Below, piece by piece: positions 17,091 to 60,072 of a DNA stretch of 64,000 bases. A program made the translations under genes and the position numbers. Below the pieces are notes generated by a model. It searched no databases. It saw only the letters and a program-made list of their open reading frames with translations, and was not told the origin of the DNA. Origin of the DNA: Paracoccaceae bacterium (GTDB lineage: Bacteria; Pseudomonadota; Alphaproteobacteria; Rhodobacterales; Rhodobacteraceae); contig JAFIEO010000039.1 of NCBI GenBank assembly GCA_020832445.1, positions 186,001 to 250,000 of the forward strand, in the 5' to 3' direction. Within the stretch, counting starts at the first letter, position 1, and each line of letters opens with the position of its first letter.

Positions 17091-17091
17091 C

Positions 17092-30710: not shown

Positions 30711-31638
30711 CAGGCGGGCTTTCGATATTCGGCCCTTGCGGCAAGACCACATCCCCCGGCAAATCCGGCGCGGGGGGGATGTCGGGAACGATCAGGCTGC
30801 CGGTATCAACGATACTCTCGACCGGGCGGGAACGCATCACGCGCAGGAATTCCAGCCGCCCGTAATCGGCGGCAAGGCGCACCCGCAACCTGCGGTCCCG
30901 TGCCTGGACAACTTCGCCAATCAGTAACCCCGCCGGAAACACGCCACCGTCATCGGAACTTATAACACGGTCGCCAGGGCGCAATTCATCAGGTGTTTCA
31001 ATGAATTCCAGCAGCGGATAGGATGAATTGTCGCCCGACAACATGGCCCGTTGCCCCGATGGCTGAATCAGCACCGGAACCGAACTTGCGGTATCCGTGA
31101 GCAGCACCACCCGCGATGTCCGGTTGCCGACACCCGCGATCCGGCCTGCAAGCCCAAGGCCATCCATCACCGCCCAGCCATCGTGAACGCCGTCGCGCGC
31201 GCCCACATTCAGCAGCACAGACCGCCGGAATGGCGATCCGCCATCCGCCATCACAACCCCTGTCACATGGGTCAGTTGCGGATCAATACGCACCTGATTC
31301 AGATCCAGCAGCTGGGCATTGCGCTGTTCCAGCTGCAAGGCCGCTTCGCGCCATGCGCGCATTTGTTGCAATTCGCGGCGCAATTCCTGATTCTGTTCCA
31401 CGATACGGGCATAGGATTGCAGGTTCTCCAGCATACCCGCAACCCGCGTCACAGGGCGCATGGCCCAGTCGAAAGACGGCACAATACGGTCGATCAGGTC
31501 CGTGCGCACCTGTTCCACCCTTGGGCTGTCAATGCGCCAGACCAGAAAAACAAGTGTCAGGAACAGAACCATAGCCCCGATCAGGATACGCCTGACAGGG
31601 CGGATATAATCTTGGTCTGTCTGACGTTCGGATGCCAA
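30703..31638 (-). CDS. mreC: Rod shape-determining protein MreC
   Basis: Bitopic scaffold of the elongasome. The 311 residues contain an N-terminal membrane helix (ILIGAMVLFLTLVFLVW), a coiled coil around residues 70-105 (VEQNQELRRELQQMRAWREAAL), and two beta-barrel domains with SVLLNVGARDGVHDGWAVMD and VGNRTSRVVLLTDTASSVPV. A Pro-rich C-terminal tail ends the protein. It is 25 bases downstream of mreB. Confidence 0.94.
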   Translation of the reverse strand: MASERQTDQDYIRPVRRILIGAMVLFLTLVFLVWRIDSPRVEQVRTDLIDRIVPSFDWAMRPVTRVAGMLENLQSYARIVEQNQELRRELQQMRAWREAALQLEQRNAQLLDLNQVRIDPQLTHVTGVVMADGGSPFRRSVLLNVGARDGVHDGWAVMDGLGLAGRIAGVGNRTSRVVLLTDTASSVPVLIQPSGQRAMLSGDNSSYPLLEFIETPDELRPGDRVISSDDGGVFPAGLLIGEVVQARDRRLRVRLAADYGRLEFLRVMRSRPVESIVDTGSLIVPDIPPAPDLPGDVVLPQGPNIESPPDE

Positions 31639-31663
31639 AGTTCAAGCCCGGCCTGTTGCGGCG

Positions 31664-32767
<1,104 letters not shown>

Positions 32768-32914
32768 TTATAGGGCGGGGCAGGGCACGCGGTAAAGGGG
32801 GTGAGATCGCAAGATAAGCGGGAATTGGCCGCGATTTCAGCACAAAGCCGCGATTTCAGGGCGGGCCGGGTGCTTTGTGCCCCGATGCCCGCCCTTATGT
32901 TCCGGTGGTGCAGC

Positions 32915-34480
32915 CTAGCTTGCGCTGCTCATCAAGGCGGACAGATTGCCGCGATGGCGGTGCAACACCATGCGATTAAGTGCATTTACATAGGCTTTCG
33001 CGGACGCCACGACCGTATCAGTGTCAGATGACTGTCCCGTAAACACGATACCGTCCTGCGCCAGCCGAACGCTGACCGTGGCCTGTGCATCGGTGCCTTC
33101 GGTGACGGCATGCACCTGATACAATTCCAGACGGGCCTCATGTTCAAACAGCATCTTGACCGCATTGAAGGTCGCGTCCACCGGGCCGTCGCCGGTGGCG
33201 TCGATGAATTTTTCAACCCCGCCGATGGACAGTGTCAGTTCCGCTTCCTGCGGTCCGTCGGTGCCGCAGACCACGCGCAGTTTGCGCACTTGCAGATAGG
33301 CATCTTCGTCATTCAGGCTGGCTTCTGCCATCAGCGCGATCAGGTCGTCGTCATAGACTTCCTTCTTGCGGTCGGCCAGCGCCTTGAAGCGCACAAACAC
33401 GTCCTTCAACTGGTTGTCGCCCAATTCATAACCCAGTTCCGACAGTTTTGCGCGCAGTGCCGCGCGGCCCGAATGCTTGCCCATCACCAGATTGGTGGCC
33501 GCCAATCCGATATCTTCGGGGCGCATGATCTCGAACGTTTCTTTGTTCTTCAGCATGCCATCCTGATGAATGCCCGATTCATGCGCAAACGCGTTCTTGC
33601 CGACCACAGCCTTGTTAAACTGCACCGGAAAGCCAGACACGGCCGCGACCATGCGCGAAATACCCATGATCTTGGTTGTGTCAATGCCGGTGCGGTAGGG
33701 CAGAATGTCGTTGCGCACGCGCAGCGCCATGACAACCTCTTCCAGTGCCGTGTTACCCGCGCGTTCACCAAGCCCGTTGATCGTGCATTCGATCTGGCGC
33801 GCGCCCGCTTCGACGGCGGCCAGCGAATTGGCGGTCGCCATGCCAAGGTCGTTGTGGCAATGCGTGGCAAAGATAATTTCATCCGCGCCGGGCACGCGTT
33901 CCAGCAACATGGCGATCAGTTCGGCACTTTCGCGCGGATAGGTATAGCCCACTGTGTCGGGAATGTTGATGGTCGTGGCCCCTGCCTTGATGGCAGCTTC
34001 AACCACGCGGCACAGATAATCGCGTTCGGTGCGCGTGGCGTCCATGGGCGACCATTGCACATCTTCGCACAGATTGCGCGCATGGCTGACCGTGTCATGA
34101 ATGCGCGCAACCATTGCGTCCTGATCCAGCGCGGTGATGTCACGGTGCAGCGGTGATGTGCCGATGAAGGTGTGAATGCGCGGGCGGGCGGCGTGTTTCA
34201 CGGCCTCCCAGCAGCGGTCGATATCATTCAGATTGGCGCGTGACAGGCCACAGATGACCGAATTGCGCGAATTCTTCGCGATTTCGCTGACGGCCTGAAA
34301 ATCCCCTTCGGATGCGATGGGAAAGCCTGCTTCGATAATATCGACACCCATTTCATCCAGCAGGGCAGCAATTTCCAGCTTTTCGCCATGGCTCATGGTG
34401 GCGCCGGGGGATTGCTCGCCATCGCGCAATGTTGTGTCGAAAATCAGGACATGGTCCTGCTTGGGGGCGGCTTGTGTCAT
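32915..34480 (-). CDS. leuA: 2-isopropylmalate synthase
   Basis: First enzyme of leucine biosynthesis, condensing acetyl-CoA with 2-oxoisovalerate. The 521-residue protein has the TIM barrel start IFDTTLRDGEQSPGATM, the metal His motif in FATHCHNDLGMATANS, and GLGERAGNTALEEVVMAL. The C-terminal LeuA dimer allosteric domain covers about residues 390-510 and confers leucine feedback. The gene is preceded by a leucine-rich leader peptide and attenuator-like hairpins, described separately, so leucine-dependent control is expected. Confidence 0.96.
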   Translation of the reverse strand: MTQAAPKQDHVLIFDTTLRDGEQSPGATMSHGEKLEIAALLDEMGVDIIEAGFPIASEGDFQAVSEIAKNSRNSVICGLSRANLNDIDRCWEAVKHAARPRIHTFIGTSPLHRDITALDQDAMVARIHDTVSHARNLCEDVQWSPMDATRTERDYLCRVVEAAIKAGATTINIPDTVGYTYPRESAELIAMLLERVPGADEIIFATHCHNDLGMATANSLAAVEAGARQIECTINGLGERAGNTALEEVVMALRVRNDILPYRTGIDTTKIMGISRMVAAVSGFPVQFNKAVVGKNAFAHESGIHQDGMLKNKETFEIMRPEDIGLAATNLVMGKHSGRAALRAKLSELGYELGDNQLKDVFVRFKALADRKKEVYDDDLIALMAEASLNDEDAYLQVRKLRVVCGTDGPQEAELTLSIGGVEKFIDATGDGPVDATFNAVKMLFEHEARLELYQVHAVTEGTDAQATVSVRLAQDGIVFTGQSSDTDTVVASAKAYVNALNRMVLHRHRGNLSALMSSAS

Positions 34481-37546: not shown

Positions 37547-37552
37547 CGCACC

Positions 37553-37660
37553 TAGAGCATGTTGCTCAAAAGTGGGAACCGGTTTTAAGCTTCTCGAACA
37601 CGCGAAATCAATAAGTTAGAGCATGTCTCGTGAATGCGAATGAACGTGATATGCTCTAAA
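37553..37660. repeat. Alphaproteobacterial 'tagagcatg' palindromic repeats (two copies)
   Basis: TAGAGCATG starts a first degenerate unit at 37553 that contains GGGAACCGGTTTT. A second unit is bounded by the perfect inverted repeat TTAGAGCAT (37616-37624) and ATGCTCTAA (37651-37659). Similar elements are dispersed in many alphaproteobacterial genomes. A third copy follows the permease gene at 41901. Confidence 0.7.
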
Positions 37661-37684
37661 TTTTGCGATCTTTGATTTATAGAA

Positions 37685-41976: not shown

Positions 41977-43014
41977 ATGGCTGAAATTGTCATCAAGGGT
42001 GTCGCCAAGGATTTCGGGGCCTTCACGGCGCTGCATTCGGTGGACCTGACCATTGCCGATCAGGAATTCATGGTGCTGCTGGGCGCGTCCGGCTGCGGCA
42101 AGACCACGCTTTTGCGCATCATCGCAGGGCTGGAAACCCCAAGTCAGGGCGAGGTCTGGATCGGCGGGCGGCGGGTGGACCATCTGCCACCCCGCGCGCG
42201 CGGTATTTCCATGGTGTTCCAGAATTATGCGGTGTTCCCGCATCTGACGGTGTTTGAGAATATCGCGTTTGGTCTGCGCATGGCGAAAGTGACCGGCACG
42301 GAAGTGGACCGCCGCGTTCGCCGCACCGCCGAGTTGATGCATATCGAGCAGTTGCTGAAGCGCTATTCTGGTGAATTGTCGGGCGGGCAGCGCCAGCGTG
42401 TGGCTGTTGCGCGGGCTTTGGCGATGGAGCCTGATGTCATCTTGATGGATGAACCGCTGTCCAATCTGGACGCGCTGCTGCGGCTGGAAATGCGCGCCGA
42501 ATTGAAGGGCGTTCTGGCTGAATCGAAAACCACCACCATCTATGTCACCCATGATCAGGTCGAGGCCATGTCGCTGGCCGACCGGATTAGCGTGATGAAT
42601 GGCGGCTATATCGTTCAGGCCGACCGCCCGACCGAAGTATACCGCAACCCCGCCGCGCGGTTTGTGGGCAGTTTCATCGGCAACCCGCCGATGAATTTCC
42701 TGCCTGCCAAATCCGAAGGGGCAGGGCGCTGGCATGTGGCGGGGCAAAGTTTCGCGGGGCCGCAAGGGTCTGCTGCCGAATTTGCCATCCGCCCCGAAGA
42801 CCTGCACCCGTCCGACACGGGCCTGAGCGCCGAAGTGCGCGTGGTCGAACCGCTTGGCCCGCATACGCTTGTCACCGCGCAGGTGGCTGGCCAGCCCTTT
42901 CGCGCCGTGCTGGACAGCGACCGCCATATCACCCCGGGCGAGGTGATCACCCTTGCGCCCGTCCCCGACCGTATCCGCTGGTTTGATCCTGAAACACAAA
43001 AGGCCATCGCATGA
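41977..43014 (+). CDS. Sugar ABC transporter ATP-binding protein (MalK/UgpC-like)
   Basis: A 345-residue CUT1-type ATPase. Walker A is LGASGCGKTTLL, the signature LSGGQRQRVAVARAL, Walker B VILMDEPLSNLDA, and the switch histidine is in YVTHDQVEAMSL. The C-terminal TOBE/OB region (about residues 240-345, including EFAIRPEDLHP) is the regulatory domain. The start overlaps nothing, but the stop overlaps the glycosidase gene by ATGA. Confidence 0.94.
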   Translation: MAEIVIKGVAKDFGAFTALHSVDLTIADQEFMVLLGASGCGKTTLLRIIAGLETPSQGEVWIGGRRVDHLPPRARGISMVFQNYAVFPHLTVFENIAFGLRMAKVTGTEVDRRVRRTAELMHIEQLLKRYSGELSGGQRQRVAVARALAMEPDVILMDEPLSNLDALLRLEMRAELKGVLAESKTTTIYVTHDQVEAMSLADRISVMNGGYIVQADRPTEVYRNPAARFVGSFIGNPPMNFLPAKSEGAGRWHVAGQSFAGPQGSAAEFAIRPEDLHPSDTGLSAEVRVVEPLGPHTLVTAQVAGQPFRAVLDSDRHITPGEVITLAPVPDRIRWFDPETQKAIA

Positions 43015-44273
43015 CAGACGCGCTGCGCAATGCTGCAATCGACATTCTGAAAATCAACGACAGGGGCCAGTATACGGTGCCCACCAAGGGGCTGTATCCG
43101 TTCCAGTGGAACTGGGACAGCTGCCTGACAGCGCTTGGCCAGTGCCATTTCGACGAAGCCCGCGCATGGACCGAGATTGAAACGCTGTTTGCCCATCAAT
43201 GGCCCTGCGGGATGGTGCCGCATATTATTTTCCATCAAATGGATGACGGCTATTTTCCCGGCCCCGCAATCTGGGGCACGGACCGGCCTGTGCCCACGTC
43301 GGGGATTACGCAGCCCGCAGTTGCGGGGTTCGCGCTGAAGCGGTTGTTTGATCGTTCGCAGGACCGTGCAGCGGCGATGCAGCGTGTGCGCGCATTGTTG
43401 CCCAAAGTGGCCGCATGGCACCGCTGGTTCTATGCAACCCGCGACCCGCATGCAGAAGGGCTGGCCGCGATCCTGCATCCATGGGAAGCAGGGCGCGACA
43501 ATTCCGTGGACTGGGACGATCCGTTCGACCGTGTGCCCACTGACGGGATTGCAGCCTATACGCGGCGCGATACCCTGCATGCCGACCCGTCACACCGGCC
43601 CACCAAGGCGCAATATGACCGCTATCTATGGCTGGTCGAGCATTTTCGCGCGCTGCACTGGGACACATCGAAATTGCATAATGCGTCGCCCTTTCAGGTG
43701 GTTGATCCCGGTTTCAATGCGATTTTGATCCGCGCATGTGCCGACCTGGCCGATCTGGCAGGTCACGTTGGCGAACCCGAACTTGCCGCCGAAAACCGCG
43801 CTTTCGCGGCGCGCGGGCTGGCGGCGATGGAAAGCCTGTGGTCGGATGCGCATGGCCAGTATCTGTGCAAGGACCGCATCACCGGCCAGTTGATCGACAG
43901 CGCGTCGGTGGGCGGGCTTCTGGCTGCGTTCTGTGCAATTCCACCCGACAGGGCCGCACGCATCGCCAACACGATAGAGGGGCACGGAACCCGCTACTGT
44001 GTCGCCAGTCACCCCCCGCAAGACCCGCGATTTGATGCCAAGCGCTATTGGCGCGGCCCTGTGTGGCTGGTGGTGAACTATATGATTGCGGATGGTCTGG
44101 CGCGCGCCGGACAGGGCCGCACCGCCGCACGCATTTCCGCCGACAGTCTGGAGTTGATCCACAAAGGCGGCTTTGCGGAATATTATGACCCCCTGACCGG
44201 CGAGGCATTGGGAGGCGGGCAGTTCACATGGACCGCTGCGATGGTGCTGGAATTTCTGGCGCTGGATGGATGA
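43011..44273 (+). CDS. MGH1/GH63-like glycoside hydrolase (glycosylglycerate-type)
   Basis: A 420-residue (alpha/alpha)6-barrel hydrolase. The N-terminal signature FQWNWDSCLTALGQCHFD, the block HPWEAGRDNSVDWDDPFDR and the late RGPVWLVVNYMIADGL and FAEYYDPLTGEALGGGQFTWTA match bacterial mannosylglycerate and glucosylglycerate hydrolases of the GH63-like group. Probable catalytic acids are Asp163 (EAGRDNS) and Glu390 (FAEYYDP). There is no signal peptide, so it acts on sugars after import. As the last gene of the LacI/ABC operon it defines the likely substrate, a compatible solute such as glucosyl- or mannosylglycerate. Trehalose-like substrates cannot be excluded. Confidence 0.82.
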   Translation: MTDALRNAAIDILKINDRGQYTVPTKGLYPFQWNWDSCLTALGQCHFDEARAWTEIETLFAHQWPCGMVPHIIFHQMDDGYFPGPAIWGTDRPVPTSGITQPAVAGFALKRLFDRSQDRAAAMQRVRALLPKVAAWHRWFYATRDPHAEGLAAILHPWEAGRDNSVDWDDPFDRVPTDGIAAYTRRDTLHADPSHRPTKAQYDRYLWLVEHFRALHWDTSKLHNASPFQVVDPGFNAILIRACADLADLAGHVGEPELAAENRAFAARGLAAMESLWSDAHGQYLCKDRITGQLIDSASVGGLLAAFCAIPPDRAARIANTIEGHGTRYCVASHPPQDPRFDAKRYWRGPVWLVVNYMIADGLARAGQGRTAARISADSLELIHKGGFAEYYDPLTGEALGGGQFTWTAAMVLEFLALDG

Positions 44274-44306
44274 TGCCGCCGCGTCCAAAGCCAAAGCGGT
44301 ATCATG

Positions 44307-44338
44307 AAAAAGACCCGGTCATTTCTGACCGGGTCTTT
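44307..44338. terminator. Bidirectional intrinsic terminator
   Basis: A 13-bp perfect stem, AAAGACCCGGTCA with TGACCGGGTCTTT, has a TTTC loop. A-rich on the left and T-rich on the right, it can stop transcripts from both the sugar operon and the convergent IalB-family gene. Confidence 0.9.
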
Positions 44339-44363
44339 ATGCTGGCTGGAACGTGCCGTCACA

Positions 44364-44969
44364 TCACGGCAGTTGTTCCGAAAGCTCGGTAAAGGCAGCG
44401 GTGAAGCCGATCAATGACATGGTCAGGTCAATGGGCTGGTCGGGGGCGGCAACAGGCACGACCTGCCAGACAGCTTCCGCGCCGCGGCGGAATGCATCAA
44501 TCTCTTCTGCGGTGAAGCCCACGCGTGCGATGCAGCCCACCGCCGTGCAAAAGGTGAACGGGTAGCGCTTGGCGGCACCTTCATCGACCTGCATGATCAA
44601 CTGTGCGGTCAGAAGCGTTTCCAGTGGCGTCAAAATGGTGGCACCCGCCGCGGCCTCCTGACCGGGTGGCAAGGGGAACATGGTGATTTCGGCAGTTGCA
44701 TTGCCTTCGCCGTCACGCAGCAGCTGATACATCTGGCAGGGGTCTTCGCCCTCGGGGTTTTCCACACAGACCAGTTCCCAGTCCCCGTGCGTGTTGCCGA
44801 TATAGCTGCCATCACCCATTTCTTCGCCAAGCACCTCTCCGGTGGACAGGGCAGTGATGGGGGAATCCGTTTCTGTGCTTGTCTGCGCGAAAGCCGCCGA
44901 TGTGCCCATAAGGGCCGCAAATGCGGCAACGGATGCAATGTTGAAAAATGCGGTATGTGTTCGTGACAT
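44364..44969 (-). CDS. Invasion-associated locus B (IalB) family protein, exported
   Basis: A 201-residue exported protein. The signal peptide is MSRTHTAFFNIASVAAFAAL with cleavage near SAAFAQ. The mature part follows the classical IalB pattern: GDWELVCVENPEGEDPCQMYQLL (conserved Cys pair), PPGQEAAAGATILTPLETLL and KRYPFTFCTAVGCIARVGFT (second Cys pair). The four cysteines suggest disulfides in the periplasm. The start at 44969 has AAGGGACAAGG upstream. An earlier in-frame codon at 45101 has no signal sequence. Free-living function is unknown. Confidence 0.88.
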   Translation of the reverse strand: MSRTHTAFFNIASVAAFAALMGTSAAFAQTSTETDSPITALSTGEVLGEEMGDGSYIGNTHGDWELVCVENPEGEDPCQMYQLLRDGEGNATAEITMFPLPPGQEAAAGATILTPLETLLTAQLIMQVDEGAAKRYPFTFCTAVGCIARVGFTAEEIDAFRRGAEAVWQVVPVAAPDQPIDLTMSLIGFTAAFTELSEQLP

Positions 44970-45101
44970 GCCTTGTCCCTTGATATGCTCGTTTTCCTTG
45001 CATGTCGTATCACGGCACGCATCAGGTGTCAGTCGAAAAAAAATGACGCCACGCAGTGTTGAACAGGGTTGATTTTGTCCATCACGCGGGTGGTAAATCA
45101 A

Positions 45102-45480
45102 AAATTAAAATAAGGGCCCGAAGGCCCCTATTCATATTGATTTTTGCTTTGCTCCCTGTCGGACTGGCCGACGATTGAGCACACCGTATGGTGAAAGCAT
45201 CACTGCGTCAACAGGAAATAGTAACCTGATTGTTATGGAAATTGTTGAAAGCCCGCCCCGCGCACGCGGGCATTTTCATCCACCTTGCCGAAACCCGGAT
45301 TGCCGGAAAAAGGCCGCACCCGAAGGCGCGGCCAGTCTGACAGGGAGGACGCGCATCCACAGATCACAAAACCGGATGCGCACCCCTATAAATAGTCTGA
45401 AATGGTTAAGATTTGCTTTTCCCGCCCACCGCTTCCAGCATAACCTGAGGGCAGGATTTATGTCAGGCGGAGTATGAGTG
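45102..45480. other. Structured intergenic region with several hairpins
   Basis: There is no protein gene here. Contents are: a UUCG-loop hairpin at 45109-45132 that pairs best on the minus strand and is followed by TTTAATTTTT; CTCCCTGTCGGACTGGCCG at 45152-45170, an inverted near-copy of 45348-45330; GTCGG-ACTGG-CCGAC at 45158-45172; a GCCCGC/GCGGGC hairpin with ATTTTC at 45251-45276; and the candidate small RNA described next. Confidence 0.6.
45307..45384 (-). ncRNA. Candidate small RNA with CCUCCC motif and intrinsic terminator
   Basis: Read on the minus strand: a TATTTAT box (45394-45388); a first stem GCGCATCC/GGATGCGC with a 15-base loop; a single-stranded GTCCTCCCTGTCAGACT (an anti-Shine-Dalgarno-like CCTCCC); and a terminator GGCCGCGCC-TTCG-GGTGCGGCC followed by TTTTT. 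The terminator stem is fully paired only on this strand (a G·U becomes A·C on the other), which fixes the direction. No clear -35 box was seen, so the promoter is uncertain. Estimated length is about 78 nt. Confidence 0.5.
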
Positions 45481-45720
45481 ATGAATGAAGGTATCGGGCC
45501 GGTTCTGGTTGGTGGCGGTGGGGCGGATCAACGCGCCCCGCAGGTTTTGAAACTGGCCTATGGCAACCGTCACGGGCTGATTGCGGGCGCGACGGGCACC
45601 GGCAAAACCATCACCATGCAAATTCTGGCCGAAGAATTTTCCAATGCAGGTGTTCCCGTCTTTCTGACCGATATCAAGGGCGATGTGGGCGGCATGGCAG
45701 TGCCGGGCACAGAGCGCGGC
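45481..45720 (+). pseudogene. HerA-like (DUF853/YjgR) ATPase, N-terminal fragment cut by junction
   Basis: About 80 residues of a helicase-HerA-like ATPase that is normally near 500 residues. Seen are [19 protein letters not shown] (Walker A) and [12 protein letters not shown], the expected DUF853 continuation with its characteristic DxKGD. After that the reading frame enters sequence antisense to proA and similarity stops. A GTG at 45478 precedes the ATG. I read it as an intact gene truncated by an artificial join, not as a decayed gene. Confidence 0.85.
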
Positions 45721-45731
45721 GGCGTGCCCCG
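45712..45731. other. Chimeric junction between two genomes
   Basis: DUF853 similarity on the plus strand ends around 45712-45720; ProA similarity on the minus strand ends at 45731 (GVELRG). Both genes are cut mid-domain at the same place. Gene content and codon texture change here from alphaproteobacterial to gammaproteobacterial type. No insertion-sequence ends, target duplication, integrase or tRNA is present. Confidence 0.85.
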
Positions 45732-46615
45732 CCGCGCAGTTCCACGCCCTCGGCGCGGTAGCGCTCGGCCAGCGGCGGCAGCAGCTGCTCGGCGATGCCG
45801 GCGGCCACGAGCAGCGTTTCCATGGTATTGCAGGTACCGTAGCGCTGGGTCTTGGCATTGAAGGCCACCTTCATGGCCTTATCCAGATCCGCCCGATCAT
45901 CCACGTAGACGTGGCAGACGCCGTCCAGATGCTTGATCACCGGCACCCGCGCCTCGCGGCTGATGCGCTCGATCAGCCCCTTGCCACCCCGCGGCACAAT
46001 CACGTCGACGAATTCCGCCATCGTGATCAGCTCACCCACGGCGGCACGGTCGGTGGTTTCCACCACCTGCACCGCGTCGCCCGGCAGACCGGCGGACTCC
46101 AGCCCGGCGCGGATGCAGGCGGCGATCGCGCTATTGGAATGGAGCGCCTCGGAACCCCCGCGCAGGATGGCCGCATTACCGGATTTCAGGCACAGACCGG
46201 CAGCATCGGCGGTAACGTTGGGACGGGACTCGTAGATGATGCCCACCACGCCCAGCGGCACGCGCATGCGGCCCACCTGGATCCCGCTGGGCCGATAGTT
46301 CAGGTCGGTGATGCCGCCCACCGGGTCCGGCAGCGCGGCAATCTGGCGCAGCCCCTCGGCCATGCCGGTGATCCGGGCTGGCGTCAGCTCCAGCCGATCG
46401 AGCAGCGCCGGCTCCAGCTCATTGGCGCGGCCGGCGTCCATGTCACGGGCATTGGCCGTGGCCAGTTTGTCGGCCTGCGCCTCCAGCAAGTCGGCGATGG
46501 CGTTCAGAGCCTGGTCCTTGGCACCGCTCTCGGCACGCGCCATCAGGCGTCCGGCGGCTCGGGCCTGACGGCCCAGGGCCTGCATGTAATCGGTAATGTT
46601 TCTGGTGTCGGACAT
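45731..46615 (-). CDS. proA: Gamma-glutamyl phosphate reductase, C-terminally truncated
   Basis: NADPH-dependent second step of proline synthesis. About 295 residues remain of the usual 415-420. Visible are the N-terminal [71 protein letters not shown], and the region just before the catalytic cysteine, [18 protein letters not shown], which includes the Cys. The last third is missing because of the junction. The true start is at 46615 (MSDTRN). It follows holA by 19 bases. Confidence 0.93.
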
Positions 46616-46634
46616 TGCTACCTTCACTCCGGGA

Positions 46635-47660
46635 TTACTCCAATGATACACGCGCGGAGACGGTATCGGCGCCTGCGATGGCAAGGCTCAATTGTAACAG
46701 CTCATCCCAGGGCCTCCCCGGCGCTGCACCCTTGATCGTGCGGTCCACCCTGGCGCCGCGCGCCAGCAGTGACTGCCAGCGGGCGCTGCTGGCCCTCCGC
46801 GCCGCCTGCTGCAATGGTCCACGGCGCGGCCCGAACACGCCGTGCCGGCGCATGACCTCGTCCCCTCGACCACCGGCCTCGCGCAACTGGCAGACCACCC
46901 GCAACTCACGGGACAGCGCCCACAGCACCAGCACGGGTTCGACACCCTCTTCCTCCAGCCCCCGCAATACCCGCACCACCCGGCGGGCATCGCCCTGCAA
47001 CGCAGCCGAAACCAAGTCGAAGACATCGTAGCGGGCGCTGTCGGCGACTGCGCCGCGCACCGTCTCCAGATCCACCTGGCCCTCGCCAACCAGCAGGCGC
47101 AGCTTCTCCACCTCCTGCACCGCGGCCATCAGGTTGCCCTCGTTGCGCTCGGCCAGCAGCCGCACCGCATCCGGCGTCGGTTGCAGACCGGCTGCCTGCA
47201 TGCGTGCCGCCAGCCAGCGTGGCAATTCGCCGGGCTCCACCGGCCAGACTTCGACCACCACCCCGACCTGATCCAGCGCCTTGATCCAGGCGGATTTCCG
47301 GCTACGCGCCTCCAGCTTTCCGCTGGTCACCAGCAACACCGTATCCTCGGCTGGTCTTTCGGCGTAGGCGGCGAACGCCTTGCCGCCATCCTGCCCCGGC
47401 TTGCCGCTGGGCATGCGTAGCTCGACCACACGGCGATCACCGAACAGGGACAGGTTGGCACCCACTTCGGCCAGCCGCCCCCAGTCGAAGCCAGGCACGA
47501 CATCCAGTACCTCTCGCTCGGTATACCCCTGGACCCGCGCCGCGGCCCGCACAGCATCCTGCGCCTCGCGGAGTTGGAATGGCTCGTCGCCGGCAATGAA
47601 ATACACCGGTGCCAGGCCGCGATCGAGCGTTTCGGGCAGTTGCTCCGGTCGTACTTTCAT
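46635..47660 (-). CDS. holA: DNA polymerase III subunit delta
   Basis: Clamp-loader subunit that opens the beta sliding clamp, 341 residues. It begins [33 protein letters not shown], with the HolA start pattern (L-x-P-x-Y-x-x-x-GDEP-x-L). The clamp-binding segment [18 protein letters not shown] and the helical C-terminal collar ([17 protein letters not shown]) are seen. It is downstream of lptE, the standard gammaproteobacterial order. Confidence 0.93.
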
Positions 47661-47692
47661 GATGCCAACCTTCTCATGCCGGGGTCCGGCGG

Positions 47693-48199
47693 CTATTCGC
47701 CCAACAACGCCTGGGCGCGATCGGTGAGCAGGAACGCGATGTCACGTTGGAACTCGCGCACGATGGCGTCCTCCTGCCCCTCGCCCCCGAGCACCTGCTG
47801 CTGATCGCGCCGGTACTCGCGGATCTGCTCCAGCGTCTCCGGCCCCTGCACGGTTTCTCCGGCCTCGTCGCGGATGCGCCAGGTGACGAAGTAGCGCAGC
47901 TCGTACTCGCGCACGTCGTCATCGCGGGTACCGGAGATCTGCCGCCGGTCACGACGCTCGCTCTCCAGCACCAGCGAAGGAATGCCACCGCCGGATTCCA
48001 CCACGTCGGCGCCGGCTGCCTGGAGCGCGGCGTAGACTTCACGGAACAGCTCGCCGCGGCCCACCTGGCTGTCCAGCCTGACCGTGACCCCTTCCAGGGA
48101 CGCAGCGCCGGGCGCCGAGCCGCGGAAGTGCCAGCCGCAGGCGGACAGCGCCAGCGCCAGGACGGCCAGCAGGAGGTAGCTTGCGTAGTGCCTGATCAT
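47693..48199 (-). CDS. lptE: LPS-assembly lipoprotein LptE
   Basis: Outer-membrane lipoprotein that plugs the LptD barrel during LPS export. The 168-residue protein has a lipobox signal (YLLLAVLALALSACGWHFRG, lipidated Cys after LSA), and the GWHFRG motif right after it is characteristic of LptE. The rest is a two-helix, mixed-sheet fold with RRDRRQISGTRDDDVREYEL. The start at 48199 gives a proper signal peptide. It lies between leuS and holA as expected. Confidence 0.92.
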   Translation of the reverse strand: MIRHYASYLLLAVLALALSACGWHFRGSAPGAASLEGVTVRLDSQVGRGELFREVYAALQAAGADVVESGGGIPSLVLESERRDRRQISGTRDDDVREYELRYFVTWRIRDEAGETVQGPETLEQIREYRRDQQQVLGGEGQEDAIVREFQRDIAFLLTDRAQALLGE

Positions 48200-48302
48200 T
48201 GTCCGGACTCCCCGGTGGATACCGCCTTCGACTCCATCCACGCTACGTTCTGAGCACGCCAGGTTCCGCGTGCCCGGCAAAGGGCTCGCGGCACTCGCAG
48301 CA

Positions 48303-51547
<3,245 letters not shown>

Positions 51548-51616
51548 CGGGTGGCTCACTGCAAGCCACACATGAACGGGGACGGTGGCCCCGGGAGAAA
51601 GCCGAAGCCACCCTGT

Positions 51617-53155
51617 CTAGTTCCGCATTCCGGGCAACCAACGGACACCGGCGGTGACCAACAGGCCGGCCAGGACAAGCAGCAACGCCGGCCAGTCCCC
51701 CCAGCGTGCATACGGTGTCAACCCGGCATGCGGCGTCACCTCCACCAGCAGGGCATCCAGGGCGAACTGGGGCACCCGGGCGATGACCTCACCGCGATGG
51801 TCCACCGCGGCCGTGATGCCGGTGTTGGTGGAACGTAGCAACGGCCGCCCCATTTCCAGGGCGCGCATCCGGGCCTTCTGGAAATGCTGGTGCGGCCCGA
51901 CCGAGCCGCCGAACCAGGCATCGTTGGACACATTCACCAACACCTCGGCCCGGGGCAGGTATTCCCGCACCTGGTTGGGGAACGTGATCTCGTAGCAGAT
52001 GAACACGGCCATGTCGTGCCCCCCCAGCCGCAACGTGTTCGCCTCCCATCCCGGTGAGAAATCCGACATCGGGGCACCGAACACATCCAGCATGCCGCCC
52101 AGCGCCGATCGAAACGGCACGTACTCGCCGAACGGCACCAGGTGACGCTTGTGGTAGAAATCCACCTCGCTGCCCACTGACACCACGGAGTTGAACACCC
52201 GGCCGGTCTCCCGGTCCCAGGACGGCACGCCCACCAGCACGTCGGTACCGCGCTCCTCAGCTTCCAGCGCCAGCGGCGCCAGGTAGTCCGTGGTGACCTG
52301 GTGGAAGAAGGCGGGAATGGCGGTCTCGGGCCAGATGATGACGTCCACGCCCCAGAATCGGCTGGTCAGGCGCTGGTAGCGATCCATGATGGGCTTCCGG
52401 TTTTCCGGCACCCACTTCTCGTCCTGCGGGACGTTGCCCTGCAACAGGGCGACCTGGATAGCCTCCCCGGCGGGCTGGGTCCAGTCACGCGCCAGCAACG
52501 CCCCGGTCAGGAGGGAGACAACCACCGCGGCAACCGCAATGCCGCCCGTGCGCCGGGCGGGTGCCAGCGCCGCCCATGCCAGTACCCCGGCAAGCACGGC
52601 AAGCAACACGCTCAGGCCAAAGGCGCCGAGCACCGGCGCCAACCCGGCCAACCAGGTATCAGTCTGGCTGTAGCCCAGTTGTAGCCAGGTGGTGCCGGTG
52701 AACAACCAGCTCCGCACCCATTCCACCACCATCCAGCAGGCAGGCAGGGTCACCATCAGCCCAAGCGCATCGCTACCCGGCCGCAGCCAGTACCAGAGCC
52801 GCCCGACAGCCCAGATCAACAGGCCGAAGGCCAATGCCAGTATCACGCAGAAGACAACTGCCACGACGGGCCCGCCGCCGAACTCCCCGACGCTGACGTA
52901 GATCCAGTGTCCGCCAGCCCCGAAATACGCCACGCCGTACATGTAGGCGGCCCACAACCCCAGCCGACGCGGCGCGCGCGCCAGTACCGCGAACAGGACG
53001 GCGGGCGACGCCACGGCCACCCAGGAATGGCCGATGGGCGCGAAGGCCAGCGGAATCAGTGCGCCGGCGAAAACCGCGGCCAGCAGCACCCAGGCGCTGC
53101 CAAACCACCCTTGCGTCCGCTGGACGCCGAATACACGGGATAAAGAATTGGACAT
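51617..53155 (-). CDS. lnt: Apolipoprotein N-acyltransferase
   Basis: Adds the third acyl chain to lipoproteins at the inner membrane. The 512-residue protein has about six N-terminal membrane helices and a nitrilase-like periplasmic domain. The catalytic triad is visible: Glu in IIWPETAIPAFF, Lys in HKRHLVPFGEYVPF, Cys in MAVFICYEITFPNQV. NVSNDAWFGGSVGPHQHFQKARMRALEMGRP is also typical. The start overlaps the corC stop by one base. Confidence 0.96.
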   Translation of the reverse strand: MSNSLSRVFGVQRTQGWFGSAWVLLAAVFAGALIPLAFAPIGHSWVAVASPAVLFAVLARAPRRLGLWAAYMYGVAYFGAGGHWIYVSVGEFGGGPVVAVVFCVILALAFGLLIWAVGRLWYWLRPGSDALGLMVTLPACWMVVEWVRSWLFTGTTWLQLGYSQTDTWLAGLAPVLGAFGLSVLLAVLAGVLAWAALAPARRTGGIAVAAVVVSLLTGALLARDWTQPAGEAIQVALLQGNVPQDEKWVPENRKPIMDRYQRLTSRFWGVDVIIWPETAIPAFFHQVTTDYLAPLALEAEERGTDVLVGVPSWDRETGRVFNSVVSVGSEVDFYHKRHLVPFGEYVPFRSALGGMLDVFGAPMSDFSPGWEANTLRLGGHDMAVFICYEITFPNQVREYLPRAEVLVNVSNDAWFGGSVGPHQHFQKARMRALEMGRPLLRSTNTGITAAVDHRGEVIARVPQFALDALLVEVTPHAGLTPYARWGDWPALLLVLAGLLVTAGVRWLPGMRN

Positions 53156-54021
53156 CAGGTTCTGCCGGCTTCCTCTGCCTCGACAGGCACATCGCTGACC
53201 AGCAGCAGATGGATGCGGCGATTGTCGGCGCGTATCACCTCGAAACGGTGCTGGCCAATGGTGACATATTCCCCGCGACGGGGCATGTGGCCGAACTGTT
53301 TCGCAACCAGGCCACCGATGGTATCGAACTCCTCGTCGCTGTAGGCGGTCTGGAAATAGGCATTGAAATCCTCGATGGGCGTCAGCGCCTTGACGATGCT
53401 GCTGCCCTCGCGTTGGCTGAGTATGTAGGTGTCATCATCGAAATCGTGCTCGTCGTCGATCTCGCCGACGATCTGCTCCAGTACATCCTCGATGGTCACC
53501 ATGCCGGCAACACCGCCATACTCGTCCACCACCACGGCGAGATGATTCCGGCTGGAGCGGAATTCCTTCAGCATCACGTCCAGCCGCTTGCTCTCGGGCA
53601 CGAACAGCGCCGGCCTCATGAGTTCCCGCATGTTGAAGCGGCTTTGCTCGTTCTCGCCGAAATAACGCAGCAGATCCTTGGCAATGAGTATGCCGATGAC
53701 ATCGTCACGATTATCGCCGATGACGGGAAAACGCGAATGGCCGGACTCATTGACAGGGGCCAGCAGTTCCTTCAGGTCGGAATCCCGGCGCAACACCACC
53801 ATCTGCGAGCGCGGGATCATGATATCCCGCACCTGCATCTCGGAGACATGCAGCGCGCCCTCGATCATTGCCAACTGGTCGGCATCCAGCAACGCGCGAC
53901 GCTGGGCGTCCCGAAGCACCTCCACCAGGTCGTCCTTGTCCCGGGGCTCTCCGGCCAGTGCCTGGCTGATACGTTCCAGCCAGGTGCGTTGCTGCGTGTT
54001 ACTAGATCGGTCCTCGCTCAT
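53155..54021 (-). CDS. corC: CorC/YbeX-type CBS-domain protein
   Basis: Magnesium/cobalt efflux accessory or membrane-quality protein, 288 residues, without membrane helices. It has two CBS domains (VRDIMIPRSQMVVLRRDSDL; LMRPALFVPESKRLDVMLKEF) and a C-terminal transporter-associated (CorC_HlyC) domain (DDTYILSQREGSS ... GGLVAKQFGHMPRRGEYV). The N-terminus WLERISQALAGEPRDKDDLVEVLRDA matches YbeX. It belongs to the miaB-ybeZ-ybeY-corC-lnt set. Confidence 0.94.
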   Translation of the reverse strand: MSEDRSSNTQQRTWLERISQALAGEPRDKDDLVEVLRDAQRRALLDADQLAMIEGALHVSEMQVRDIMIPRSQMVVLRRDSDLKELLAPVNESGHSRFPVIGDNRDDVIGILIAKDLLRYFGENEQSRFNMRELMRPALFVPESKRLDVMLKEFRSSRNHLAVVVDEYGGVAGMVTIEDVLEQIVGEIDDEHDFDDDTYILSQREGSSIVKALTPIEDFNAYFQTAYSDEEFDTIGGLVAKQFGHMPRRGEYVTIGQHRFEVIRADNRRIHLLLVSDVPVEAEEAGRT

Positions 54022-54139
54022 CAGTCGTAATTACCATGGCACCAAGAAATCAGGGGTGAAGCGTCGAATCCACCGGAGCCCTGGACTCCCGCCAAACGAC
54101 CGCCCCACGCTTCACGCTTGATCTCTCGTGACCACCGTC

Positions 54140-54595
54140 TCACGCCGTCAGGTACGGATCAGGGAAACCCAGGCCGGACAATATGTCCCACTCCAGCGAC
54201 TCCATGATTTCTGCGTCGGCGTCATCTTCATGATCATAGCCCAGCAAATGCAAAGTACCGTGAACGATCATGTGCGCGAAATGCGCGTCCGCCGACTTGC
54301 CCTGTTCGCCAGCCTCACGGACGACGACGGGCGCACAGACTACCAGATCACCGAGAATCGGCAATTCCAGGCCAGGTGGAGCCTCGAACGGAAAGGACAA
54401 CACATTGGTGGCGTAATCGCGGCCGCGGTAATCGCGGTTCAAGGCAAGCCCTTCCTCCTGATCCACGAGGCGCACCACCAGTTCCGCCTCGTCCCGCCGG
54501 CCTGCGAGTGCGGCCCGCACCCAGCCACCAATACGCTCCTCGTCCGGGAGACCCGGCGCCTGGCTGGCGTACTGGACGTCAATGTCGATTGTCAT
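54140..54595 (-). CDS. ybeY: Endoribonuclease YbeY (16S rRNA maturation)
   Basis: Single-strand-specific zinc endoribonuclease involved in 16S rRNA 3' maturation and quality control. The 151 residues include [19 protein letters not shown] and the metal site H-x3-H-x5-H in [22 protein letters not shown]. Length is normal. It lies 59 bases downstream of the phoH-like gene. Confidence 0.96.
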
Positions 54596-54654
54596 GGCTG
54601 TTTCGGCGCTTTTCTGATGGTGGGGCTCGCTGCACCCCCACCCGGAAGACCACG

Positions 54655-55632
54655 TTACTGGCCGTCCGGAGAGAACTTCTCGTAGGCCTGAACGATCCGC
54701 TGGACCAGTGGATGGCGCACGACATCGCCGGCGGTGAAGAACGTGAAGCTCACACCCTCCACGTCCTTGAGAATCTCGATGGCCTGGCGCAGGCCGGAGG
54801 GCGTGCCCTTGGGCAAATCCACCTGGGTGACGTCGCCTGTGACCACGGCCGTGGAACCGAAGCCGATACGAGTCAGGAACATCTTCATCTGCTCCACGGT
54901 GGTGTTCTGCGCTTCATCCAGGATGATGAACGAGCTGTTCAGCGTGCGTCCCCGCATGTAGGCCAGCGGCGCCACTTCGATCACGTTGCGCTCTATCAGC
55001 TTGCCCACGCGCTCGAAGCCCAGCATTTCGAACAGCGCGTCGTACAGCGGCCGCAGGTACGGGTCCACTTTCTGCGCCAGGTCACCGGGCAGGAAACCAA
55101 GCCGCTCGCCGGCCTCCACGGCCGGGCGCACCAGCACTAGCCGGCGCACGTCCTCCCGCTCCAACGCGTTCACCGCTGCCGCCACGGCCAGGTAGGTCTT
55201 GCCGGTGCCGGCCGGGCCGATGCCGAAGTTGAGATCATTGGAGATCACGTTCTGCAGGTAGCGTTGCTGGTTCGGGCCGCGCCCGCGTATCTCCATCTTC
55301 CGGGTGCGAATCACCACATCCTGCGGTTCCGCCTGCTGTTCCTGCACCCGTGCCTCCACGCGCGACTGCTGCAGGAACAGATGCACCGCTTCGGGAGACA
55401 GTTGCTGGGAGGCGGAGGCGCGGTAGAGATCCTTCAGAACCTGTTCCGCGGCATTGGCCGCGGCGCTCTCGCCGATTACGCGGAAACGATGGGCCCGGTT
55501 GGAGATCTCCACCCCCAGGCGGCGCTCCACCTGGCGGAGATTCTCGTCGAACTGGCCGCAGAGATTGGCCAGCCTGTGGTTGTCGGTGGGTTCCAGGACA
55601 AAGTCCAGAGCATCGGGGTGTACTGTGTTCAA
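54655..55632 (-). CDS. ybeZ: PhoH-like ATPase YbeZ
   Basis: PhoH-family ATPase that partners YbeY. Walker A is [18 protein letters not shown], Walker B region [19 protein letters not shown], and [14 protein letters not shown] is conserved. A KH-like N-terminal segment lies around [17 protein letters not shown]. The likely start is a TTG at 55632 ([15 protein letters not shown]), preceded by CGGGAG and clear of the miaB stop at 55649. An ATG at 55701 would overlap miaB by 53 bases and add a non-conserved leader. The 325 residues are close to the usual 330-350. Confidence 0.92.
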
Positions 55633-55648
55633 ATCGACTCCCGAGACC

Positions 55649-57004
55649 TCAGGCACTGGCTGCGGAGACGGGATGATTGTCGACGGCGACAATTTCCCCA
55701 CGAAGCGAATGCGACAGGGCCTCTGTTATACGCACCTGAACGAACTGCCCGATCAGACGACGATGACCCGGGAAGTTCACTACCCGATTATTGCCTGTCC
55801 GGCCGGCAATTTCATGTTCGCTCTTGCGCGACACCCCATCCACCAGCACCGACTGCACAGTACCGACCATGGATTCGCTGATGCGCCGGGCATTTGCCTC
55901 CAGCGCGGATTGCAGTCGCTGCAACCGGGCCTTTTTGACCTCGGGTGGGGTACTGTCCGTCAGCGAAGCCGCCGGCGTTCCGGGCCGTGGGCTGTAGACG
56001 AAGCTGAAGGAGTGGTCGAAACCGATCTCCTCCACCAGTTGCATGGTTTCCTCGAAACTGTCCTCGTCCTCACCGGGAAAACCGACGATGAAGTCCGAAC
56101 CCACGCTGATCTCCGGACGGATCTCGCGTAGACGGCGGATCTTGTCCTTGAATTCGGCGATGGTGTGACCGCGCTTCATCAGCTTGAGCACGAAGTCCGA
56201 TCCGCTCTGCACCGGCAGGTGCAGGTGGTCGACCAACTCGGGCACTTCGCGGTAGGCCTCGATCAGGCTGTCGGAGAACTCCACAGGATGCGACGTGGTA
56301 TAGCGGATGCGGTCGATGCCGTCGATGGCGGCGATGAAGTTCACCAGCAGCGCCAGGTCGGCCACGGTGCCGTCGGCCATCTCGCCCTGGTAGGCGTTGA
56401 CATTCTGTCCCAGTAGCGTGACCTCGCGCACGCCCTGCCCTGCCAGTCCGGCCACTTCGGCGATCACGTCGTCGAACGGGCGACTGATCTCTTCGCCGCG
56501 GGTATACGGCACCACACAGAAACTGCAGTACTTGCTGCAGCCCTCCATGATGGAAACGAAGGCCGTGGGGCCATCGGCACGAGGCTCCGGCAGGCGGTCG
56601 AATTTCTCGATCTCCGGAAAGGAGACGTCCACCACAGGCTTGCGGTCGCGCACCGCCGAATCGTAGAGCTCCGGCAGGCGGTGCAGCGTCTGCGGACCGA
56701 ACACCAGATCCACGTACGGCGCGCGCTGCTGCAGTGCCGCACCTTCCTGGCTGGCGACACAGCCGCCGACGCCGATGACCAGATCCGGGTTGCGATCCTT
56801 CAACGGCTTCCAGTGGCCAAGCTGGGAAAACACCTTCTCCTGAGCCTTCTCGCGTATGGAGCAGGTATTCAGCAGAATCAGATCGGCCTCTTCCGGCGTC
56901 TCCACGCGCACGAAACCGCGCTCGGCGGAGAGTACGTCCGCCATCTTGGCGGAGTCGTACTCATTCATCTGGCAGCCGTGTGTCTTGACGTAAACCCTGC
57001 GCAA
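55649..57004 (-). CDS. miaB: tRNA-2-methylthio-N6-dimethylallyladenosine synthase
   Basis: Radical-SAM methylthiotransferase acting on i6A37 of tRNAs. The 451-residue protein has three N-terminal cluster cysteines ([34 protein letters not shown]), the SAM cluster [15 protein letters not shown], and a C-terminal TRAM domain ([26 protein letters not shown]). It begins the miaB-ybeZ-ybeY-corC-lnt cluster. Its roughly 260-base upstream region separates it from the divergent tpsB-like gene. Confidence 0.97.
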
Positions 57005-57266
57005 TGTAGCGTCCCCGCAAACCGCGTAATTGAACCAGCACTCGCCCCGTTTCCGCGGCCCCCCCGAACCGGGCGCCCTGGATGCCGGGAACCGAGCCGG
57101 CGAAGGGTAACGCCAGCCGCCACGATCTGCAACCGTGGCAAGCAGTTACGCCTTGGCTCGGGATTTGGAACAGTTTACTCTTCGGAAGACGGAATCAACA
57201 AAGCCCGGGGTGGGGATCCGCGGTGCCCGGGCATAACGAAAAGAACACTAGGGCAGTCACAATCAG

Positions 57267-58931
57267 ATGGCGACGCATCGTTTTCGGGCCATCCTGGCGC
57301 TCGGGCTCTGGCTCGTGCTGCCGGGCCTCTTCCAGCCAGTGCTGGCACAGACACCACCTCCACCAGGCAGTTTCACCGATCCGGGTGCCAGACAGCAGGA
57401 AGAACGCCGCCAGTTGGAGCGCGAGCAGGAGCGTCGCGAGGCGGAACGGCCCGAGACGGAAGTGCTTATCGACGGCCTCCGCCGCGAGGACGACTTCAGG
57501 CTGCCGGACGAGGGGCCGAGCTTCCACCTGCAGGGTGTCCGTTTCTCCCGAACGGAGTTGCTGGAGGAACAGGATCTGCGCGAGGTCACCAGCCGCTACG
57601 TGGGCCGCGAGGTGGATTTCGGGGAACTGAACGCGCTGGTGGACGAGATCAACGTGCTCTACGACACCAAGGGTGCGGTCACCGCCCGCGCCCTGATCCC
57701 GCCACAGGAAATCCAGGCGGGCGTCGTGCACATCCTGCTGGTGGAAGGTCGGCTCGGCGAGTTGATCATCGGCGAACTGCGGTATACCCGCCCGGAATTC
57801 ATTCTTGATCGCGTCACCCTGCCGGAACCCGGCGAGATCATGGACCTTCTGGCGCTGCAGGAAACGCTGTCGCGTTTCAACACCATCTACGAGCTTGACC
57901 TGGTCGCCGGCCTGGAACCGGGCGAGGAATTCGGCCACAGCAACATCCTGCTGCTGCCCCAGGAGCGGCCCCGATGGCAAGTGACCGGATTTGCCGACAA
58001 CGCCGGCACCGAGACCACCGGCCGCGAACGCGCCGGCCTCACCGGCACCTACCGCGGCCTGCTGGGCCGGGACGACCGGCTGTTCGCCTACGCCGCCGGA
58101 GCACGCAGTTCCCTCAGCGGCTTCACCAGCTACAGTGTGCCGGTGAACCGGCAGGGCGGGCGCATTGAAGCCAGCCTGTCGGCGAACGATATCGAGGTGA
58201 CCCGGGGTCCGTTCCGGGATCTGGATATCGAGGGCCGCTCATACACCGGAGAACTGAGCTACCGCCATCCGCTCCTGCGGCGCGACCGCTGGATGATCGA
58301 CGGCACTACCCGCGGCTCCTACACCGAATCCCGCACCGATTACCTGGGCGGGCTGGCGCTCAGCCGCTATGCGCTGAGCAAGGGCGGCGTTGGCGCCCGC
58401 GTCACCCATACCGGCAGGCTGCACCAGGCGAGCCTGGGCCAGAACGTGACCTACGTGGAAGCCGAGGAACGGCGCTCCGACGTGCGCGAACGCTATGTGC
58501 TCTGGAACGGTTCGGCCACCTGGGTGCAGTACTATCCGATACCGATCTACACGGTACTCTCCGGCAACTGGCAGATCACTTCCGAGCGGGAGCTGCCCTC
58601 GGCCGACCTGTACCAGGCCGGCGGCCTCTACAGCGTGCGCGGCTACGAACAGAACGTGATCACCGGCGCCCGGGGGTACAGCACCTCGCTGGAACTGCAC
58701 TGGCCGGTCCACCACCGCCTGGCCCCTTACCTGTTCGTCGACCACGGCGCAATTCAGGCGATCAGCCCGCGCAACGAGGAGATAACCGGCGCCGGGGTCG
58801 GCGTGAACTGGCGATTGAACCGTTACTTGAGCGGGCAACTGGACTACGCGCGCGGCCTGACCCGTATCGAGCCCGACCAGGACCGCATGCAACTGCACTT
58901 CCGTGTCACGCTCGCCTTCGACGGCGGCTGA
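57267..58931 (+). CDS. Two-partner secretion outer-membrane transporter (TpsB, ShlB/FhaC type)
   Basis: A 554-residue Omp85-superfamily protein. The signal peptide is MATHRFRAILALGLWLVLPG with cleavage near VLAQ. A Gln/Arg/Glu-rich N-terminal helix region (residues 45-75) precedes two POTRA domains (FHLQGVRFSRTELLEEQDL; GELIIGELRYTRPEF). The 16-strand barrel carries the VRGY motif at residues 457-460, and the chain ends in a C-terminal aromatic-poor strand (LHFRVTLAFDGG). It would export a TpsA exoprotein. The nearby convergent giant protein gene is the plausible partner but is not in the same operon. Confidence 0.9.
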   Translation: MATHRFRAILALGLWLVLPGLFQPVLAQTPPPPGSFTDPGARQQEERRQLEREQERREAERPETEVLIDGLRREDDFRLPDEGPSFHLQGVRFSRTELLEEQDLREVTSRYVGREVDFGELNALVDEINVLYDTKGAVTARALIPPQEIQAGVVHILLVEGRLGELIIGELRYTRPEFILDRVTLPEPGEIMDLLALQETLSRFNTIYELDLVAGLEPGEEFGHSNILLLPQERPRWQVTGFADNAGTETTGRERAGLTGTYRGLLGRDDRLFAYAAGARSSLSGFTSYSVPVNRQGGRIEASLSANDIEVTRGPFRDLDIEGRSYTGELSYRHPLLRRDRWMIDGTTRGSYTESRTDYLGGLALSRYALSKGGVGARVTHTGRLHQASLGQNVTYVEAEERRSDVRERYVLWNGSATWVQYYPIPIYTVLSGNWQITSERELPSADLYQAGGLYSVRGYEQNVITGARGYSTSLELHWPVHHRLAPYLFVDHGAIQAISPRNEEITGAGVGVNWRLNRYLSGQLDYARGLTRIEPDQDRMQLHFRVTLAFDGG

Positions 58932-58959
58932 CCGAGCCACATCAAACGGAGCAACACCC

Positions 58960-59700
58960 ATGTCGACCCTGCTGTTCTACGAAAACGTCGTTCCCCTCAA
59001 CCGTGACCAGCACCGCAGCCTGCGGCTGAAACCCGCGCCGGGCGATTTCACCTTTGCCCGCGACACGCCGTTCGTGCCGATGGCCGGCAGCGAGTTCTTC
59101 CCGGCCGCCAAGCACTACCCGGTCCTGTTTTCCGGTCCGGACGACGACACCGGGGCGGTCGCCCTGCTTGGCCTCACCCAGGGCAGCAACCTGTTCGTCG
59201 GCAAGGACGGCAACTGGACCGAGGACACCTATGTCCCGGCTTTTGTACGCCGTTACCCGTTCGTGCTGGCCGGCTCGAAGGAGTCGGACGAGTACACCGT
59301 CTGCGTGGATGACCGCTGGAAAGGCTTCGGCGAGGACGAAGGCGAGGCGCTGTTCAGCGAGGACGGCGAACAGACCGATTACCTGAAGCGCGTGCTGGAT
59401 TTCATCCAGCGCTACCACGCCGAGATGCAGCGCACGCAAGCCTTCATCGCGCGGCTGCGCGAGCTGGAACTGCTGGTACGTCGCGATCTGCAGATCACCG
59501 ACCCGCAGGGCGGCTCGCTGTTGCTGAAGGATTTCCGCGTGGTGGACGAGCAGCGCTTCGCAGGGCTGGACGATGCGGTGATTGTGGAGTTCCACAAGGC
59601 CGGCTGGCTGCCGTGGGTGTACGCCCACCTGCTGTCACTCAGCAATCTGCAGGGGCTGCAGAAACGCTTGCAGGTGGCCAGAAAAGCGGCGGCACATTGA
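58960..59700 (+). CDS. SapC family protein
   Basis: A 246-residue soluble protein starting MSTLLFYENVVPLNRDQHRSL. The LKPAPGDFTFARDTPFVPMAGSEFFPAAKHYPVLFS and VPAFVRRYPFVLAG blocks are the SapC signature, first seen in Campylobacter S-layer loci and often next to large exoproteins or TonB systems. Its biochemical role is unknown. It is 28 bases after the TpsB gene and probably cotranscribed. There is no signal peptide, so cytoplasmic. Confidence 0.88.
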   Translation: MSTLLFYENVVPLNRDQHRSLRLKPAPGDFTFARDTPFVPMAGSEFFPAAKHYPVLFSGPDDDTGAVALLGLTQGSNLFVGKDGNWTEDTYVPAFVRRYPFVLAGSKESDEYTVCVDDRWKGFGEDEGEALFSEDGEQTDYLKRVLDFIQRYHAEMQRTQAFIARLRELELLVRRDLQITDPQGGSLLLKDFRVVDEQRFAGLDDAVIVEFHKAGWLPWVYAHLLSLSNLQGLQKRLQVARKAAAH

Positions 59701-59714
59701 TCGACCTGGGGAAT

Positions 59715-60064
59715 TCGGGCTCGCGCCCGACGGTAGCAACCGCTGCGCGGTTACTCCCCTACGGCGAGACGGCTTCCCGGAGAGACGCTATGGCGTTGCG
59801 GGGGTAATCGCCGCCAGGCGATTGCCACCAATCCGGCCAACGGCCGGAAACACCCCGCCCTGACGGATGATTCCCTCGGGCTCACGCCCGACGGTAGCAA
59901 CCGCTGCGCGGTTACTCCCCTGCGGCGGGATGGCTTCCCGGAGGGGGGCTGGGACGTAGGGGGGTAATCGCCGCAAGGCGATTGCCACCGATCCGGCCGC
60001 AGGCCGGAAACACCCTGCCCTGACGGTTGCTACCCTGCGGCGGGATGGCTGCCCGGAGGGGCGA
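59715..60064. repeat. 161-bp tandem repeat array with REP-like hairpins (2.2 copies)
   Basis: A unit starting TCGGGCTC(G/A)CGCCCGACGG begins at 59715 and again at 59876, giving a period of 161 bases; a third partial copy begins near 60025. Each unit holds three inverted repeats: GGTAGCAACCGCTGCGCGG with its arm, GGTAATCGCCGC-AAGGCGATTGCC, and CCGGCCGCAGGCCGG. It fills the gap between the SapC gene and the convergent giant gene. It may also terminate both transcripts. Confidence 0.88.
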
Positions 60065-60072
60065 TGACCCGC

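Follow-up and report, generated by a model that had tools for sequence, protein, structure and literature searches.

A contig of an alphaproteobacterial genome assembly that very probably joins, by misassembly, alphaproteobacterial and gammaproteobacterial DNA inside two genes

The window, the whole stretch of 64,000 nucleotides that was analysed, is C33:186,001-250,000 of the assembly G000, which comprises 4,079,334 bases in 99 contigs, is rated 99.99% complete and 2.01% contaminated, and is probably a metagenome bin. Within the window a HerA-like gene on the plus strand and a proA gene on the minus strand both end at the same point, at about 45,704-45,721. The features discussed below are:

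1-45,703, no strand: alphaproteobacterial flank, one genome, collinear with contig C1 of G020 in five blocks
45,478-45,720, plus: HerA-like (PF05872) ATPase gene, 5' fragment cut by the join (Pfam E=2.8e-25), with its remainder on C42:1-1,415
45,629-45,721, plus: stretch overlapping the start of C42 (C42:1-93), 84/93 bases identical
45,701-45,721, no strand: break zone, a short GC-rich stretch fitting both genes, with HerA identity from the left and ProA residues from the right
45,704-46,615, minus: proA (glutamate-5-semialdehyde dehydrogenase), gammaproteobacterial, C-terminal ~30% missing (NF001221 profile 3-288 of 418)
45,722-64,000, no strand: gammaproteobacterial flank, running on until C33 ends (about 47.7 kb in total), with holA, lptE, leuS and others and with Alkalilimnicola-family matches

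To the left of the break, window 1-45,737 is collinear with the first contig of a genome of the same genus (G020; six contigs), in five consecutive blocks of 93.9-96.8% identity interrupted by a single unaligned gap (37,548-37,682). The HerA-like gene has 80 codons (45,478-45,717), and its residues 17-78 match the Pfam family HerA_C (PF05872) at profile positions 8-69 of 502, which bears out the statement of a first-pass annotation of this DNA that the gene leaves its family at about codon 80. The missing part of the protein, about 440 amino acids, is encoded right at the beginning of a different contig of G000, C42, where it is followed by obgE, proB and a complete, alphaproteobacterial proA; the first frame of C42 has 470 codons, about 30 of them within the overlap with the window, and matches PF05872 at profile positions 43-497 (E=1.9e-188). 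The overlap contains nine differences, all of them transversions, and G020 has the base of the window at nine of nine; the differences are probably errors at a poorly covered contig end. In G020, window 42,970-45,717 and C42:1-7,321 lie in one stretch, each at about 95% identity and with an 89-base overlap at the break. Of the 23 same-genus genomes other than G000, eleven were examined; the HerA-like gene is likewise uninterrupted in ten of these, and the piece from the eleventh contains neither half. Because C42 overlaps the window and carries the rest of the PF05872 gene, because G020 has both parts as one stretch and because the gene is intact in these ten genomes, the left side truly continues on C42.

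To the right of the break, proA, read as starting at about 46,615, has lost roughly the C-terminal third that the first-pass annotation had reported missing at this same point: window 45,740-46,684 matches the NCBIfam profile NF001221 (E=2.9e-118) and the match stops at position 288 of 418. Up to the break the protein is 76.5-79.5% identical to ProA of the Alkalilimnicola family, 69-71.5% identical to that of four other gammaproteobacteria and 55-58% identical to that of the genus found on the left side. A search with HolA returned nine named loci at 42-55% identity, whose titles are without exception gammaproteobacterial (Alkalilimnicola, Nitrococcus, Natronospirales, an Ectothiorhodospiraceae MAG, a Thiotrichales MAG and two unplaced MAGs). 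LeuS of the right flank shares 75% identity with its counterpart in Alkalilimnicola ehrlichii AK92 (G046); a second leuS of the assembly, on C68, gives 53% and 41% identity to it over two pieces. At the DNA level, window 45,745-51,005 is matched by all four Alkalilimnicola-family genomes (69-77% in the ten best pieces), and the gene order proA-holA-lptE-leuS is common to the right flank and its gammaproteobacterial relatives. Thirteen gammaproteobacterial loci were tested, four of them without proA; in all nine that hold the gene (eight genomes) it runs uninterrupted across the position of the break. A search of the assembly for the missing end of the gammaproteobacterial proA found no second copy. 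By its open reading frames, the foreign DNA continues to the end of C33, with no return to host DNA there. The two sides thus belong to different lineages, with same-genus genomes on the left (94% identity) and Ectothiorhodospiraceae-like relatives on the right, in agreement with the first-pass prediction that the best relatives would differ by flank and that the content on the right is gammaproteobacterial.

Composition changes at the same place, as the first-pass annotation had led us to expect for k-mers. G+C is 0.602 on the left (1-45,717) and 0.654 on the right (45,722-64,000); the opening 20 kb of C42 have a value of 0.607. A tetranucleotide log-ratio, trained on the same flanks that it then scores and so partly circular, changes sign from -0.099 in the 2 kb from 44,001 to +0.157 in the 2 kb from 46,001. 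Twelve pieces of four gammaproteobacterial relatives score 0.010 to 0.085, below the right flank (0.078 to 0.160) and above the left pieces (-0.178 to -0.095).

Where exactly the left sequence gives way to the right was examined from both genes. Up to 45,717 the HerA-like gene agrees with G020 at 85 of 89 bases, over the next 23 bases at 15, and the match of the window to C42 ends at 45,721. From the other direction, the protein match to a gammaproteobacterial ProA extends to window 45,698. Eleven sub-stretches were scored in a test against ProA profiles, and only those reaching RALCP were strong: for the minus-strand residues ARRRALCP (45,727-45,704), which lie beyond GVELRG, only 2 of 76,785 controls fitted eight gammaproteobacterial ProA loci equally well, and for RALCP (45,718-45,704) only 3 of 81,851 were equally good; GGARR, which adjoins the safe ProA reading, was weak (2,719 of 81,851). 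The mid-gene join that had been placed near 45,720 is therefore confirmed and best located at 45,704-45,721. About 15-20 bases at the join fit both genes, as judged from relatives, since the contaminant's own sequence there was not found in G000. The first-pass annotation had noted a GC-rich stretch leading to the break; the stretch, TGCCGGGCACAGAGCGCGG at 45,701-45,719, is indeed present at the join, but it straddles the break and does not merely lead to it. The accompanying suggestion, that shared sequence misled the assembler, is the reading that we favour in view of the bases that fit both genes, and it is unproved because the contaminant's intact proA end was not found in the assembly. 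Within the 64-kb window, no run of G or C is longer than 8, a length that does occur.

No hallmark of a mobile element was seen around the join, as had been stated before. The list of open reading frames around it contains no integrase or other integration gene, and a search of 44,700-46,700 for flanking repeats gave only short, partial ones, with no bracketing pair that looked like more than chance. A phage collection had no match to window 43,000-48,000. With window 44,000-47,500 as the query, 65 records of a plasmid collection matched, none of them with one place covering 80% of the query; among the best 8 of the 65, four fell under annotated glutamate-5-semialdehyde dehydrogenase genes, with matches starting at window 45,706 or later. 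A search of G000 for a gammaproteobacterial 16S rRNA copy returned no 16S match at all and is hence uninformative.

A similar switch was found on another contig, C18 (324,900 bases), which is gamma-like to about 135.6 kb and, in every sample taken from 136 kb onwards, alpha-like; the exceptions in the gamma part, with no gamma-like score, are the sample C18:30,001-34,000 and a 1-kb piece at C18:130,001. The switch lies at a 24-base poly-G run (C18:135,601-135,624; L187), which cuts a gene that we take to be GMC oxidoreductase-like. The corresponding C-terminal domain (PF05199) occurs at three places in G000, one of which is a 375-amino acid frame running off the end of C1 (L220), a contig that ends in 14 C. 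This piece, chosen because its length fits and because it runs into a homopolymer, is probably the other half of the cut gene. The start of C71, which carries a 181-amino acid end of the same family, was considered and passed over for the better-fitting piece on C1. On the gamma side, C18:124,001-135,500 matches all four Alkalilimnicola-family genomes, with 68-74% identity in the four longest pieces, which measure 1.5-1.8 kb and come from three genomes. A TRAP-transporter-like gene on that side, matched at 71% over about 1.8 kb by G048, also matches alphaproteobacterial DNA at 77-78% over about 470 bases, in G017, in G020 and in contig C47 of G000 itself, which does not suit a simple picture. 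The initial 4 kb of C18 had no match in G020 or G017, which alone shows little. We conclude that C18/C1 is a second misjoin, of the same two kinds of genome and with the same signature as that on C33.

Samples were taken from the first 4 kb of 98 contigs, three of which read as N, and from the last 4 kb of 19, and scored by tetranucleotides. Among the 95 readable starts C18 alone was clearly gamma-like (0.093, the next being 0.014). In the sampled pieces, clearly foreign DNA was confined to contigs whose other part is alphaproteobacterial; with most contig interiors outside the sample, this suggests that the foreign DNA entered by riding on alphaproteobacterial contigs. In these sampled pieces, the 12 longest runs of G or C measure 14-44 bases and are distributed over 10 contigs (C37, C99, C27, C20, C36, C23, C61, C43, C98 and C69), none of them further than about 105 bases from a contig end. 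Two-colour Illumina chemistry is known to produce such runs, and poly-G artefacts seem to break this assembly widely.

Taken together, we regard it as nearly certain that C33 is a chimeric contig, in which DNA of an alphaproteobacterium and of an Ectothiorhodospiraceae-like gammaproteobacterium was joined inside two genes through misassembly of co-sequenced bacteria. The join is an assembly artefact, to be cut, with no biology behind it. Misassembly is the best explanation because there are two joins in one assembly, and at each of them an alphaproteobacterial gene is cut, with its other half standing at the start or end of a different contig. The proposal of the first-pass annotation that two unrelated genomes had been joined in assembly is upheld by the continuation on C42, by the unbroken stretch in G020 and by the named gammaproteobacterial relatives on the right. 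In the proposed sequence of events, two bacteria would have been sequenced together, the alphaproteobacterium making up most of the assembly; the assembler would have passed from one genome to the other through the GC-rich stretch of some 15-20 bases common to both, and the foreign 47.7 kb may have been kept since they were attached to a mostly alphaproteobacterial contig. One observation that counts against misassembly is that the overlap of C42 with the window is 90% identical, not 100%; another is that the search of G000 did not turn up the end of the gammaproteobacterial proA that would be expected to follow.

The same sequence would also result if the chimera were a physical molecule, formed during library preparation or amplification by priming at the short shared stretch and then followed by the assembler. 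The stretch at the join suits such an origin, which we consider unlikely but worth keeping in mind; the second misjoin, through poly-G, and the long G or C runs near contig ends point instead to graph or base-calling trouble, an argument that bears directly on C18 and not on C33. Real horizontal transfer, in which a gammaproteobacterial chromosome block of 47.7 kb or longer was inserted into the HerA-like gene, could account for the fact that the contig reads through the join and, in a mixed population, both states could in principle coexist. However, C42 starts directly in HerA sequence, shares a 93-base overlap with the window and has no foreign DNA ahead of that sequence, and the block consists of housekeeping genes in the order of gammaproteobacterial relatives, duplicates leuS and ends inside proA. 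Moreover, neither an integrase nor a clear flanking repeat is found near the join, and host DNA does not resume beyond the insert, the foreign DNA reaching the end of C33; transfer is accordingly highly improbable. We give an equally slender chance to a variant in which a subpopulation of the alphaproteobacterium truly carries large gammaproteobacterial blocks joined via short shared stretches, C42 then representing the cells without them. That the window is a single genome, free of foreign DNA, in which two genes have evolved rapidly or degraded, is scarcely credible: we found no point in its support, both genes agree well with their relatives as far as the break and end there together, the switch in composition and in nearest relatives falls at the same place, and C42 and G020 already refute it.

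Misassembly of this kind has precedents. In the GUNC paper, chimeric contigs are described as fragments of different sources wrongly joined in one contig, and mis-binning as commoner than misassembly (PMC8201837); the latter statement counts against our preferred explanation. The present case resembles those chimeric contigs in having fragments of different sources in one contig and a marker-gene score (2.01%) below the estimated foreign share, and differs from them in that the true partner contigs can be named for both joins (C42 and C1). According to a second source, k-mer graphs can contain paths matching no real genome (PMC8172020). C33 and that account have in common a path of this kind in GC-rich sequence, whereas the mechanism on C33 is a deduction.

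These findings amount to quality control for this genome. We estimate the foreign DNA at about 183 kb (4.5%), to which C33 contributes 47.7 kb and C18 about 135.6 kb, a figure that takes the stretches of C18 between the samples, as far as 135.6 kb, to be gammaproteobacterial as well; by this estimate, the marker-gene score of 2.01% understates the contamination. Gene lists of the species consequently include foreign genes, such as those for two-partner secretion in the right flank. The first-pass caution against neighbourhood inference across the join is shared by us: inference of gene neighbourhood or gene transfer is unsafe across window 45,704-45,721 and equally across C18:135,601-135,624.

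Several further features were recorded. The gammaproteobacterial flank of the window encodes a ShlB/POTRA-type secretion protein (57,267-58,931), a SapC-family protein (58,903-59,700) and a giant adhesin-like protein, read from the minus strand and ending in a C-terminal OmpA domain (60,073-63,999, with about 13.6 kb more beyond the window, into L005); this region resembles a two-partner secretion system whose OmpA tail is unusual. The same flank has several copies of a repeat of about 140 bases (window 59,714-60,011; L005:13,834-14,227 and 16,846-17,138), with 81-88% identity in the longer matches, and the right end of C33 cuts what is presumably an IS110-like transposase gene (L006:8,449-9,411). 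On C18, the sample at 30,001-34,000 (L168) is low in G+C (0.53 and 0.435 in two 2-kb pieces) and is perhaps an island. The right end of C10 scored gamma-like (0.076) and was rejected as a chimera since its genes look like prophage tail genes. The start of C2 (C2:1-1,600; L067) is gamma-like for its first 1.6-2 kb and then alpha-like, and could be another chimera or a mobile element. Finally, an interspersed repeat of about 180-205 bases, 85-88% identical between copies, occurs in the left flank (window 25,889-26,093), on C42 (L004:5,004-5,209) and further left on C33 (L007:10,338-10,515), one more sign that these three belong together.
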